Assembly (NCBI GenBank): GCA_015067975.1
Contig: SVLK01000008.1
Span: 1 to 60,582, forward strand
From: Oscillospiraceae bacterium
GTDB taxonomy: Bacteria > Bacillota > Clostridia > Oscillospirales > Oscillospiraceae
Length of the DNA stretch: 60,582 nt
Reading direction: 5' to 3'
Shown: positions 44,448-47,992 of the stretch, piece by piece
Numbering within the stretch: position 1 is the stretch's first letter
Layout of the letters: each line of letters starts with the position of its first letter
Translations under genes and position numbers: made by a program
Notes under the pieces: model-generated
Databases searched by the model: none
Told to the model about the DNA's origin: nothing
The model's input: only the letters and a program-made list of their open reading frames with translations

Positions 44448-45314
44448 TTATTTGGATTTGTTTTTGAAAATCGTTTCGGGGGCTTGGATCACCACGCGGG
44501 TGTTGGCTTCCACGGCCTCAGTCAGGAAGGCGTTGCCGCCCACCACGGTATTCTGGCCAATCACGGTTTCGCCGCCGAGGATGGATGCACCGGAGTAGAT
44601 GGTCACGTTGTCTTCCACGGTGGGGTGACGCTTGCCGGGTAAAGAAGCGTGGCCGGCGCGGGGGGACAGAGCGCCCAGCGTCACGCCCTGATAGAGTTTG
44701 ACATGGCTGCCGATGAGGGTGGTTTCGCCTACCACGATGCCGGTGCCGTGGTCAATGAAGAAGTATTCGCCAATGGTGGCGCCGGGGTTGATATCGATAC
44801 CGGTGCGGCTGTGGGCATACTCAGTCATGATACGGGGGATCATGGGAACCTTGCGCAGATACAGCTCGTGGGCGATGCGGTAGACAAAAATGGCAAACAG
44901 GCCCGGATAGGCAAAGATGATCTCGTGCTTATCCTGCGCAGCGGGATCGCCGTCAAAGGTGGCGTCCAGATCCTTGAGCAGCGTGGCCTGGATCTGCGGC
45001 AGGCAATCGATAAACTCGCGGGCGATGCCTGCTGCTTTGCCGGACTCTTCTTCCGGCAGTGCCAGTGCGATCTGGGTGCGCAGCGTCTTTTCGATGCGAT
45101 CCAGCAGCAGTGCGGCATAGTCTTGCGGAGCCATAGTCATCAGCGAAGCATCGCCGTAATAGGCGGGGAACATCAGTCGGCGGATCTCTTTGATCAGCGC
45201 AATGACGGCTTTTCTGTCGGGCAGACGCAGCTCGGCACCGTACAGAGGCATTTCACTGCCTGCCATATTTTCGGCCATTGCCTCAGCGGCGGCGCGGATA
45301 TATTCGGGATACAT
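44448..45314 (-). CDS. cysE: Serine O-acetyltransferase
   Basis: The enzyme acetylates serine as the first step of cysteine synthesis. The 288-residue protein has a helical N-terminal half and a left-handed beta-helix with the catalytic region IDHGTGIVVGETTLIGSHVK and GASILGGETVIGQNTVVG. It is the longer EpsC/CysE form. GGAGAG precedes the ATG. It follows cysK by 12 bases, so O-acetylserine maker and user are in one transcript beneath the cysteine leader. Confidence 0.93.
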   Translation of the reverse strand: MYPEYIRAAAEAMAENMAGSEMPLYGAELRLPDRKAVIALIKEIRRLMFPAYYGDASLMTMAPQDYAALLLDRIEKTLRTQIALALPEEESGKAAGIAREFIDCLPQIQATLLKDLDATFDGDPAAQDKHEIIFAYPGLFAIFVYRIAHELYLRKVPMIPRIMTEYAHSRTGIDINPGATIGEYFFIDHGTGIVVGETTLIGSHVKLYQGVTLGALSPRAGHASLPGKRHPTVEDNVTIYSGASILGGETVIGQNTVVGGNAFLTEAVEANTRVVIQAPETIFKNKSK

Positions 45315-45326
45315 AAATAACTCTCC

Positions 45327-46256
45327 TTATTCAGCAAATAATGGGGTGGACAGATAGCGGTCGCCGGTGTCGGGCAGCAAGGCCACGATCACCTTACCGG
45401 CATTTTCCGGACGGGAAGCCAGTACCGTCGCGGCATGCAGCGCAGCACCGGAAGTGATGCCGCACAGCACGCCTTCGCAGCGGGCCAACTGCCGTCCGGC
45501 GGTATAGGCTTCTTCCTCGGTAACGCACAGCACTTCATCAATGATGCTGCGATCCAGATTATCCGGCACAAAGTTGGCGCCGATCCCCTGCAGTCCGTGG
45601 GCACCGGCTCGTCCCTGCGTCAGCAGAGGAGAGGACGCAGGCTCTACGGCGACGACCTGCACGGTGCTGCTTTGCTCTTTGAGATATTGCGCCGTGCCGG
45701 AAATCGTACCGCCGGTGCCGACACCGGCCACAAAGATGTCTACATGCCCCGCTGTATCGCGCCAGATTTCGGGTCCGGTGGTGAGGTAGTGAGCGCGGGG
45801 ATTGGCTTTGTTTTCGAATTGACCGGCGATCCAGCTGCCGGGAATGGAGGCAGCCAGTTCTTCCGCCTTGGCGATAGCACCGCTCATGCCCAGTTTACCG
45901 TCGGTCAGCACTAACTGTGCGCCGTAGGCAGCCAGCAGCGTGCGCCGCTCGGAACTCATGGAGTCAGGCATGGTGAGAATCACCCGGTAGCCGCGGGCAA
46001 TGCCCATGGCTGCAAGCCCGATGCCGGTGTTGCCGCTGGTGGGTTCAATAATGGTAGCGCCGGGCGTGAGCACACCGCGCTCTTCGGCATCCCGGATCAT
46101 TTGCAGCGCCACGCGATCTTTGGCGCTGCCGGCGGGGTTAAGATATTCCAACTTGGCAAGAATGGTGGCATGCAGCTGCTTTGCTGCGGCGTAGCCGCGC
46201 AGCTCCAGCAAAGGTGTGTTGCCCACCAGTTCCTGCAGCGAATGGTACAGACTCAT
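45327..46256 (-). CDS. cysK: Cysteine synthase (O-acetylserine sulfhydrylase)
   Basis: CysK makes cysteine from O-acetylserine and sulfide with PLP. The 309 residues contain the PLP lysine in LNPAGSAKDRVA, the substrate loop PTSGNTGIGLA, the phosphate loop GVGTGGTISGTAQYL and GITSGAALHA. Full length and intact. AAAGGA lies before the ATG. Between this start and the likely promoter lie a terminator hairpin and a Cys-rich leader frame. Confidence 0.95.
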   Translation of the reverse strand: MSLYHSLQELVGNTPLLELRGYAAAKQLHATILAKLEYLNPAGSAKDRVALQMIRDAEERGVLTPGATIIEPTSGNTGIGLAAMGIARGYRVILTMPDSMSSERRTLLAAYGAQLVLTDGKLGMSGAIAKAEELAASIPGSWIAGQFENKANPRAHYLTTGPEIWRDTAGHVDIFVAGVGTGGTISGTAQYLKEQSSTVQVVAVEPASSPLLTQGRAGAHGLQGIGANFVPDNLDRSIIDEVLCVTEEEAYTAGRQLARCEGVLCGITSGAALHAATVLASRPENAGKVIVALLPDTGDRYLSTPLFAE

Positions 46257-46282
46257 GTGATTCGTCCTTTCTTGCGAAGATA

Positions 46283-46317
46283 AAAAACGGCAGAGGGTGT
46301 GTCATACACCCTCTGCC
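46283..46317 (-). terminator. Leader terminator upstream of cysK (putative attenuator)
   Basis: GGCAGAGGGTGT pairs perfectly with ACACCCTCTGCC around five bases, and the minus strand continues GTTTTTTATC. It stands between the leader peptide frame and cysK, only 27 bases before the cysK start, so it would cut off expression unless overcome. Confidence 0.85.
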
Positions 46318-46346
46318 AATCAAAGCTTTTGCAGCTTTCAAATCTA

Positions 46347-46448
46347 TTATGCGGCAGAAAACGTATGACCGGTGCGGACACGGCAACAACAGGGCATGAT
46401 GCACATCATGTCCATGCACATGGAGCCGGCCATCGTAAAGCGGGTCAT
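46347..46448 (-). CDS. Cys/Met-rich leader peptide of the cysK-cysE operon
   Basis: A 33-codon frame has a good ribosome site (AAGGGGGAAAACAG then ATG at 46448). It begins MTRFTMAGSMCMDMM and continues CIMPCCCRVRTGH: five Cys (three in a row, codons TGT TGT TGC) and seven Met. It ends 30 bases before the terminator at 46317. This is the classical layout of transcription attenuation by a leader peptide, here for cysteine. I see no T-box or SAM riboswitch in the leader. Whether ribosome stalling favours or blocks the terminator I could not resolve by hand. Confidence 0.7.
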   Translation of the reverse strand: MTRFTMAGSMCMDMMCIMPCCCRVRTGHTFSAA

Positions 46449-46467
46449 CTGTTTTCCCCCTTTTGAG

Positions 46468-46484
46468 ATACTACAGTATAGTAT
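46468..46484. promoter_or_regulatory. Dyad near the cysK leader promoter
   Basis: ATACTA and TAGTAT form a perfect 6-5-6 inverted repeat overlapping the TATACT sequences that would serve as -10 for the leader. It could be a repressor site, for example of an Rrf2/CymR-type regulator. Confidence 0.4.
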
Positions 46485-46628
46485 AGTGCTTCAATAAAAA
46501 GATTGCTACTGTCAATTCTGCCAAAATTCCGCAAAATGACTTGGGAATGTTCCACGATTTCTGCCTTTTTCCCGTTTTTTCGGCGTTGAAAGAGGAGAAA
46601 TGCGCAAGATGGATTCTTTGGCGAATCG

Positions 46629-46657
46629 TTGACAAAAGATGGGAGATTGGGTAAACT
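46629..46657 (+). promoter_or_regulatory. Promoter of lysA
   Basis: TTGACA (46629-46634) and TAAACT (46652-46657) are 17 bases apart, about 80 bases before the start codon. Confidence 0.75.
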
Positions 46658-46735
46658 GATATATAGAAAAATACCGATTATGTGGCACGAGTTTTTTGCA
46701 AAACAACTGCCGGAAAAGAAAGGAAACCGCCGACA

Positions 46736-47992
46736 ATGAAGAAACCGTTTGTCACGCTGGAACAGCTCAACGAGTTGGTCAAACAGTACCCCACGCCTTT
46801 CCATCTGTACGATGAGAAAGGAATTCGCGAAAATGCCCGTGCACTGCACAAAGCCTTTGCGTGGAACAAGGGCTTCCGTGAGCACTTTGCCGTAAAGGCC
46901 ACCCCCAATCCTCAGATCCTGAAGCTGCTGAAGGAAGAGGGCTGCGGTGTGGACTGCTCTTCTTTGACTGAACTGATGATGGCCGAGCGCTGCGGCTTCT
47001 CCGGCAGCGAAATCATGTTCTCTGCCAACGAGACCCCGGCTGAGGAGTTTGAGATGGCTGCCAAGCTGGGCGCCACCATCAATCTGGACGACCTGACCCA
47101 TGTGGATTTCCTCCACGAGACCATCGGCTATATCCCCAAGAAGATTTCCTGCCGTTTCAACCCCGGCGGTATTTTTACGTTGGGCGAGAGCAAGGAGGGT
47201 TTCCAGGTCATGGATAACCCCGGCGATGCCAAGTACGGCCTGACCCGTCCTCAGATGACCGAGGCATTCCGCAAACTGAAGGAACTGGGCGCTGAGGAGT
47301 TTGGCATTCATTCCTTCCTGGCCTCCAATACGATCTCCAACGACTATTACCCCACGCTGGCCGCGATTCTTTTCAAGGTCGCCGTGGAGCTGAAGGAAGA
47401 AACCGGCGTGCATATTACCTTTATCAATCTGTCCGGCGGCGTAGGTGTACCTTACCGTCCCGAGCAGAAGGCCAATGATATCGCTATCATTGGTGAGGGT
47501 GTACGCAAGGCTTATGAAGAGATTCTGGTGCCTGCCGGCATGGGCGATGTGAGCATCTGTACCGAATTGGGCCGCTTTATGCTGGCGCCTTACGGTCATC
47601 TGGTGACCCGCGCCATGCATGAAAAGCACACCCATAAGGAATACATCGGTGTAGATGCCTGCGCTGCCAATTTGATGCGCCCTGCCATTTACGGTGCTTA
47701 CCACCACATCACCGTCATGGGCAAGGAAGATTGGGAATGCGACCACAAGTACGATGTGGTGGGCGCTCTGTGTGAAAACTGCGATAAGTTTGCCGTGGAC
47801 CGCATGCTGCCCCGCATTGATAAGGGCGATCTGTTGGTGATCCATGATACCGGCGCCCACGGCCATGCTATGGGCTATCAGTATAACGGACGTCTGCGCA
47901 GCGCTGAGATACTGCTGCAGGAAGATGGCACATCCCGCCTGATTCGCCGTGCCGAAACGCCCGACGACTACTTTGCCACTTGCATTTGGTAA
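46736..47992 (+). CDS. lysA: Diaminopimelate decarboxylase
   Basis: LysA converts meso-diaminopimelate to lysine with PLP. The 418 residues have the PLP lysine in HFAVKATPNPQIL, GCGVDCSSLTELMMAERCG, the HSFLASNT and LSGGVGVPY loops, and the substrate Cys region LCENCDKFAVDR. It is a divergent, shorter-loop version as found in many Clostridia. ATG at 46736 follows AAAGGA by about 12 bases. Divergent from the cysK leader; no other lysine gene nearby. Confidence 0.88.
   Translation: MKKPFVTLEQLNELVKQYPTPFHLYDEKGIRENARALHKAFAWNKGFREHFAVKATPNPQILKLLKEEGCGVDCSSLTELMMAERCGFSGSEIMFSANETPAEEFEMAAKLGATINLDDLTHVDFLHETIGYIPKKISCRFNPGGIFTLGESKEGFQVMDNPGDAKYGLTRPQMTEAFRKLKELGAEEFGIHSFLASNTISNDYYPTLAAILFKVAVELKEETGVHITFINLSGGVGVPYRPEQKANDIAIIGEGVRKAYEEILVPAGMGDVSICTELGRFMLAPYGHLVTRAMHEKHTHKEYIGVDACAANLMRPAIYGAYHHITVMGKEDWECDHKYDVVGALCENCDKFAVDRMLPRIDKGDLLVIHDTGAHGHAMGYQYNGRLRSAEILLQEDGTSRLIRRAETPDDYFATCIW

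Follow-up and report, generated by a model that had tools for sequence, protein, structure and literature searches.

The window analysed in this study is a stretch of 60,582 nucleotides from an Oscillospiraceae bacterium. On its reverse strand it carries a cysK-cysE gene pair separated by 12 nt, and a short cysteine-rich open reading frame (ORF) followed by an intrinsic terminator was found upstream of cysK. The annotated features are given below in the order of transcription, with the basis of each in brackets.

46501..46515, reverse strand: TTGACAGTAGCAATC element on the 5' side of the promoter (shared without change by five species, namely the window, L082, L083, L084 and L085)
46480..46485, reverse strand: probable -10 box TATACT, with the transcription start expected near 46472 (TATA.T invariant)
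46456..46460, reverse strand: Shine-Dalgarno GGGGG of the leader ORF, seven bases lying between its end and the ATG (sequence)
46440..46460, reverse strand: segment 1, the ribosome site and first leader codons, able to pair with segment 2 (minimum-energy fold, duplex, swap test with controls)
46347..46448, reverse strand: leader ORF of 33 codons plus TAA, with Cys at codons 11, 16, 20, 21 and 22, encoding MTRFTMAGSMCMDMMCIMPCCCRVRTGHTFSAA (sequence, ORF list)
46383..46391, reverse strand: presumed control codons TGT TGT TGC, Cys 20-22 (Cys codon starts 24, 21 and 18 nt before segment 2)
46353..46367, reverse strand: segment 2, the antiterminator strand CATACGTTTTCTGCC, coding HTFSA (complementarity to segment 3; pairing over 11 leaders)
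46303..46317, reverse strand: segment 3, the terminator 5' arm and part of the loop, able to pair with segment 2 or segment 4 (complementarity, pairing counts)
46289..46300, reverse strand: segment 4, the terminator 3' arm (hairpin search, terminator conservation, fold)
46282..46287, reverse strand: T run of the intrinsic terminator, six T (sequence, hairpin search)
45327..46256, reverse strand: cysK, cysteine synthase A (NCBIfam TIGR01139, 423.8 bits, above the cut-off)
44448..45314, reverse strand: cysE, serine O-acetyltransferase (NF041874 EpsC, 156.1 bits, above the cut-off; TIGR01172 below its cut-off)

This layout agrees closely with the first-pass annotation of the same DNA, which had read the site as a candidate peptide attenuator. 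The 33-codon frame with its own ribosome site was confirmed at 46347-46448 with five Cys codons and the GGGGG upstream, and the identities of cysK and cysE were borne out by NCBIfam matches above the cut-off. The predicted 12-bp terminator was recovered as a hairpin at 46318-46288 on the reverse strand, for which the hairpin search counts 13 pairs and the fold gives a 12-bp stem, with TTTTTT following it. Spacings of 30 and 27 bases had been given on either side of this hairpin; we measured 28-29 nt from the leader stop codon to the hairpin and about 31 nt from the hairpin to the cysK ATG (25 nt counted from the end of the T run), which is close. The leader ORF ends 90 nt before cysK, and cysK has a ribosome site of its own.

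Five of the six bases of the -10 box (TATA.T) are invariant across 13 aligned leaders, and the TAGCAA of the TTGACAGTAGCAATC element lies 17 nt before TATACT in the window. Sequences resembling this element were also seen in L231 and L245. A regulon defined by the element was considered and rejected, as none of the four other sites found in the genome at up to two mismatches is in a leader-like setting. The divergent gene at 46736-47989 on the forward strand is nearest to lysA (diaminopimelate decarboxylase), with a score below the NCBIfam cut-off (284.1 versus 297.9 bits).

Conservation of the short frame was examined at cysK loci collected from public genomes (the best 80 of 284) and from the genomes of the genus and the family. 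The start of cysK could be read at 153 loci, counting the window and duplicates, and 146 of them were non-redundant with at least 150 nt upstream. A leader was counted where a short ORF with an ATG start and a Shine-Dalgarno sequence contained two or more Cys within eight residues. Such an ORF was found in 20 of the 24 non-redundant loci at which cysE lies just downstream of cysK (public part limited to the best 80 of 284), as against 0.5 on average and 3 at most in 100 dinucleotide shuffles of the same loci. These 20 loci are not independent cases because near-identical species are included among them (L088/L089; L091/L092/L093/L095). The loci that lack the ORF are L075, L076, L144 and L094, the last of which is missed because its contig ends inside the leader. 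One further positive locus, L166, is counted under lone cysK because its cysE falls outside the fetched piece. A short frame with a Cys run is thus conserved upstream of cysK in relatives, and the lack of conservation that the first-pass annotation had named as a refuting outcome did not occur.

Cysteine makes up 20.2% of the 625 residues in 22 leaders versus 1.6% in four proteins of the window, and methionine 9.6% versus 2.8%. The spacing of the Cys residues is not conserved over 19 aligned leaders, and Pfam and NCBIfam searches with the leader peptide gave no match. The Met codon directly before the Cys run was observed to be invariant in 13 aligned leaders. An additional response to methionine or formyl-Met supply, which had been suggested from the Met content of the peptide, appears weak: although Met is frequent in close relatives, there is none after the start codon in L110, L209, L251, L254 and L255.

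Among the 32 genomes of the genus, the leader and terminator were found together in 21, nineteen times before cysK-cysE and twice before cysE alone (L205 and L209, in G002 and G003). In G020, the leader-bearing cysK-cysE operon is split over two contigs. The terminator is present in G006 (L094/L168), where the contig ends before the leader ORF; a second short frame, MYTQIRLAERCPRFCFTHTHPHH..., was noticed behind the attenuator terminator at this locus, running on towards cysK. Six genomes of the genus have cysE without such a leader (L231, L232, L235, L245, L247 and L248), and four gave no cysE match at E<=1e-20. Frames with at least two Cys do occur upstream of cysE in L231, L235 and L247. 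They are either located at or before a promoter-like TATAAT or form the end of an upstream frame, and were not accepted as leaders.

The search for cysE in 200 family genomes gave matches in 39, of which 35 lie outside the genus and provide 36 places. The upstream region was read at 26 of these 36 places and four were found to have a leader and terminator, L139 and L251 in one genus and L254 and L255 in another. L153, from a third genus, was added from the cysK loci; it has both leader and terminator, its cysE is distant (38% identity) and its terminator is weak. Outside the genus, the arrangement is therefore found in five genomes of three genera. L171, from the genus of L153, has a Cys-rich short ORF with a cysE-like match downstream and was left out of the leader count. 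In five cases (L205, L209, L251, L254 and L255) the leader stands before cysE with cysK located elsewhere, so that the attenuator goes with cysE, the committed step, in these as well.

Similarity searches were also carried out with the leader itself. All 18 matches of a leader profile at E below 1e-4 in the 32 genus genomes stand before cysK or cysE, the profile having been built from most of these same sequences, with G002 as a new one. Weaker profile matches in G030, G027, G018, G004, G019 and G001 are without leader anatomy and were rejected, while those in G002 and G003 are real. The search of the 200 family genomes with the 33-residue peptide gave matches in 49 genomes at E<=1; outside the genome of the window (G000) the best value was 0.012 and several matches contain internal stops, and these were not used. 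A covariance model that combines segment 2 with the terminator matched at E<=0.05 in 20 of the 200 family genomes, and these matches were taken as ordinary terminators. The best of them outside G000 (6.7e-5) lies at a place that also matches on the other strand. The covariance model thus does not extend the family, whose reach into other genera rests on the reading of the regions upstream of cysK and cysE.

The 5' arm of the terminator, GGCAGAGGGTGTATG, is complementary at all 15 positions, with G-U pairs at four, to CATACGTTTTCTGCC, which forms the last codons of the leader ORF. The alternative antiterminator that was looked for on folding the leader therefore exists in the window, and it exists in the nearer relatives as well. 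In 11 leaders chosen for aligning in register, two pairs of which are close, this 2:3 pairing is kept in 94.5% of cells versus 31-66% when the partner is slid by 1-3 columns; an earlier set of 11, with two leaders out of register, gave 88.5% versus 28-61%. The column-shuffle covariation score for 2:3 was not significant in either set (75/500 and 78/500, respectively). When the strands were swapped in 22 of the 26 leaders (the near-duplicates L089, L092, L093 and L166 were left out), the native total energy of 2:3 was reached in 87 of 100,000 permutations, and smaller sets gave 73/40,320 (eight leaders), 2,577/200,000 (11 leaders) and 1,571/100,000 (another 11), the native partner being the single best in only two of the 22 rows. 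Leader by leader, 14 of the 26 beat mononucleotide shuffles at p<0.05 (uncorrected). The pairing does not rise above shuffles singly in L091, L092, L093, L095, L096, L097, L110, L139, L209, L251, L254 and L255, and it is worse than its own shuffles in L097 and L110.

The pairing of the terminator is preserved in 90% of cells, and a terminator separates leader and gene in all 26 leaders, which were collected on the basis of this anatomy. Variants include the loss of the distal CC pair in L084, the weak terminator of L153 already mentioned and a short T run in L086. The position of the Cys codons relative to segment 2 is also regular: Cys occurs at both -21 and -18 nt in nine of 11 leaders (the set with L090 and L096 in and L205 and L209 out), and in every one of the 11 the stop codon follows the end of segment 2 at a distance of 0-15 nt. 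Exceptions to the spacing were observed in L088 and L089, where the Cys positions include -36, -33 and -15. The terminator arm of L083 and L084 has its best partner further upstream, and three Cys codons (7, 9 and 11) are likewise placed further upstream. A ribosome reaches some 12-15 nt past its A-site codon; a ribosome stalled at the Cys codons would therefore leave segment 2 free, while one at the stop codon would cover it.

A model of the nascent RNA of the window gave an expected number of 2:3 pairs of 14.7 for the free RNA, 13.6 with a ribosome stalled at Cys22 and 3.4 with one that has reached the stop codon. In 22 of the 26 leaders, more pairs are expected in the stalled than in the stop-codon state; the order is reversed in L083, L084, L087 and L251, and there is almost no difference in L096. 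In the full window transcript at equilibrium, the terminator dominates all three states with 11.9 pairs each. Read-through would thus need kinetic capture, and the switch would have to act co-transcriptionally. In L164, the stalled ribosome removes the terminator even in the equilibrium model, and in L091 it weakens it. A transcript stopping at segment 3 adopts the 2:3 pairing even with no ribosome, its overall energy being unremarkable (z -0.77).

A second partner for segment 2 was found at the start of the leader. In the minimum-energy fold of the whole leader (z -4.39 versus shuffles, terminator included), segment 2 pairs with GGGGGAAAACAGATGACC, which comprises the leader ribosome site and start codon. 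The two strands of this 1:2 helix change together in related leaders, as GAGAAGCC with GGCTTCTC in L090, GAGAAGCTG with CAGCTTCTC in L096 and, with one mismatch, AGAATGCGTATGA with TCATGCGCTTTCT in L086. The native total of the swap test over 22 leaders was reached in none of 100,000 permutations, and two sets of 11 gave 24/100,000 and 0/200,000; the native partner is the single best in only four of the 22 rows. Control swaps showed no native advantage for the ribosome site against the middle of the ORF (94,176/100,000; 17 leaders) or for the 5' region against a distal region (91,458/100,000; 22 leaders), and the swap of the ribosome site against the terminator arm gave 6,029/100,000. Tested singly against shuffles, the helix reaches the 5% level in the window, L085, L086, L087, L090, L096, L164 (0.050), L205, L209 and L251, and misses it in the other 12 of the 22 leaders, L082 included. 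A pairing of the leader ribosome site with a distal segment is also found in the trp leader of E. coli.

The elements that can be read from the sequence are the leader ORF, the Cys run, the 3:4 terminator, the mutually exclusive 2:3 antiterminator and a possible 1:2 helix. We consider it highly probable that they form an attenuator with four RNA segments through which ribosomes control transcription of the cysK-cysE operon specifically in response to cysteine. The signal is most likely the stalling of ribosomes at the Cys codons, from which we infer regulation by charged tRNA-Cys. When Cys-tRNA is plentiful, the ribosome would run to the stop codon and mask segment 2, and the terminator would form. 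When it is scarce, the ribosome would stall on Cys codons 18-24 nt before segment 2, and the exposed segment 2 could capture segment 3 as the RNA emerges, allowing the polymerase to read through into cysK-cysE. If no ribosome is loaded, segment 1 may pair with segment 2 while segment 3 is still to be made, which would give the terminator and close the ribosome site. This last step is the least certain: at least as many 2:3 pairs are expected in the free RNA as with a stalled ribosome, and 2:3 folds without a ribosome, so that 1:2 could cause termination by default only if it formed ahead of 2:3. Comparative anatomy supports the mechanism well in the window and its nearer relatives and less so in the distant leaders. 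The peptide-attenuator reading of the first-pass annotation is supported in that the ORF, terminator, antiterminator and conservation in relatives are all present.

Some features of the peptide go beyond what codon sensing needs, as Met precedes the Cys run in 17 of 19 aligned leaders and Ala follows it in many. They would suit an arrest peptide in which the nascent chain (around C-x-M-x-C-C-C-x-A) stalls the ribosome on free cysteine or another sulfur compound rather than on a lack of Cys-tRNA. However, the rest of the peptide varies freely, the five leaders named above have no Met after the start, and the conserved codons at the 3' end of the leader are explained by the RNA pairing; we regard such a peptide as improbable. 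The richness of the window peptide in both Cys and Met could also point to a functional small protein, either a metal or copper binder or a modified peptide, followed by a plain terminator, and Cys-rich upstream ORFs that respond to copper are known in other bacteria. Against this, the peptide has no family match and no conserved Cys spacing, its last codons double as the antiterminator, and every one of the 18 profile matches in the genus precedes cysK or cysE, which makes a small protein very unlikely.

It is just as unlikely that the 1:2 helix is the main control, with segment 2 governing translation of the leader and cysK following by coupling or through Rho instead of the intrinsic terminator. 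The helix is the best supported one in the swap test and it closes the leader ribosome site, yet all 26 leaders are separated from the gene by a terminator (with the reservation that this anatomy was the basis of their collection), and in the window cysK starts 90 nt beyond the leader with its own ribosome site.

Neither a T-box nor a SAM riboswitch was detected at the site, so that the second refuting outcome named in the first-pass annotation did not occur either; such elements are present elsewhere in the genome. The T-box model (RF00230) gave no match in the window at the gathering score or in 46250-46740 at E<=1, and the SAM riboswitch model (RF00162) gave none in the window or at 46250-46740. 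The sole Rfam match at E<=1 in 46250-46740 was to a microRNA family, with 18.2 bits versus a cut-off of 64, and was taken as chance. Thirteen T-box matches at E<=0.001, six of them above the cut-off, and one SAM match were found elsewhere in the same genome. For 12 of the 13 T-boxes, the gene that follows was read (cysS and the TrpB-like gene were checked with NCBIfam and the rest by reading the sequence); eleven look like aminoacyl-tRNA synthetase genes and the twelfth is TrpB-like. The T-box match before cysS (L188, G000:C38:28857-29062) reaches 73.8 bits, short of the cut-off of 93. Cys-tRNA thus appears to be sensed in this organism by a T-box at cysS and by a peptide at cysK-cysE.

The usual picture of amino-acid sensing in Firmicutes is one of T-boxes, riboswitches and repressors. 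Attenuation of transcription by ribosomes is commonly held to be rare among them, perhaps because ribosome and polymerase are not closely coupled; to our knowledge, tight coupling has not been established in this phylum. The attenuators of the trp and his type in Proteobacteria consist of a short ORF with codons for the end product and a mutually exclusive antiterminator and terminator, the control codons lying upstream of the antiterminator strand. The arrangement described here is like them in its ORF with clustered end-product codons, in its exclusive antiterminator and terminator and in the placement of the control codons just 5' of the antiterminator strand. It is unlike them in the amino acid, which is cysteine, in the host, which is a clostridial Firmicute, and in segment 1, which is the leader ribosome site instead of the control-codon region.

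Cysteine leaders have been described in other phyla. The uORFC-8-2 motif before cysS of Rhodobacterales, for which attenuation by Cys-tRNA is predicted (PMC8632094), resembles our leader in having an upstream ORF with tandem Cys codons and an intrinsic terminator, and differs in that it precedes cysS in Alphaproteobacteria whereas here the leader precedes cysK-cysE or cysE and the genome's own cysS has a T-box match. In Actinobacteria, Cys leader peptides are predicted before cys operons, with no conserved terminators (PMC1262725), and the mycobacterial ones are reported to be cysteine-responsive attenuators that are leaderless and act by translation attenuation (Canestrari 2020, as cited in PMC13236596). 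These share with our leaders the Cys codon run in a short ORF before cysteine biosynthesis genes, whereas a Shine-Dalgarno sequence, a terminator and an antiterminator are present here. Within Firmicutes, leader-peptide attenuation is represented by the His leader peptide of hisS*/hisZ in Bacilli, which, the ermC leader aside, was the first known to its authors beyond Proteobacteria and Actinobacteria (PMC2965389), and by a leucine-rich attenuator peptide in Staphylococcus aureus (PMC5794164); the amino acid, the genes and the class differ from ours. We found no Cys leader peptide ahead of cysK or cysE in Firmicutes in the literature covered by our search, which was mostly of papers outside subscription journals.

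A broader reading, which we put forward tentatively and hold to be somewhat less probable than its opposite, joins these observations. The leader ribosome site would serve as the protector segment, and segment 2, on which termination depends, would also shut the site at which the sensing ribosome loads, so that the switch would read both Cys-tRNA charging and ribosome loading and would reset itself; Cys-tRNA would be sensed by a T-box at cysS and by a peptide at cysK-cysE; and terminator-less mini-leaders at lone cysK genes would suggest that Cys leader peptides arose repeatedly in clostridia. A Cys attenuator conserved in an Oscillospiraceae-like group, in a genome with a T-box match at cysS, would make the question of coupling testable in Firmicutes, and the leader could be offered as a native reporter of cysteine status.

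Finally, other short ORFs were observed before lone cysK. Cys mini-leaders with Arg-Cys (for example YRCC, RMCRCCID, FRCRD), mostly without a terminator, occur in L017, L025, L030, L034, L039, L056, L060, L064, L098, L101, L105, L106, L163, L171 and L177. An RC-containing short ORF with a Shine-Dalgarno sequence was found in 15 of 122 lone-cysK loci versus 0.9 in shuffles, and clustered Cys in 12 of the 122 versus 1.4 (public part in both counts limited to the best 80 of 284); among these 12, L166 is in fact the leader of a cysK-cysE pair, as L171 may be too. L169 has a Cys run without RC, and the FRCCCCP of L100 was missed by the Shine-Dalgarno rule of the script. A different short ORF, with the conserved tail SP(L/M)RPG(L/M)xWRC, lies upstream of cysK in L029, L030, L034, L036, L039 and L044; in five of these six the Cys directly precedes the stop codon. 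The product is possibly an arrest peptide. In L029 and L030, this ORF is followed by a promoter-like TTGCCA-N17-TATAAT.
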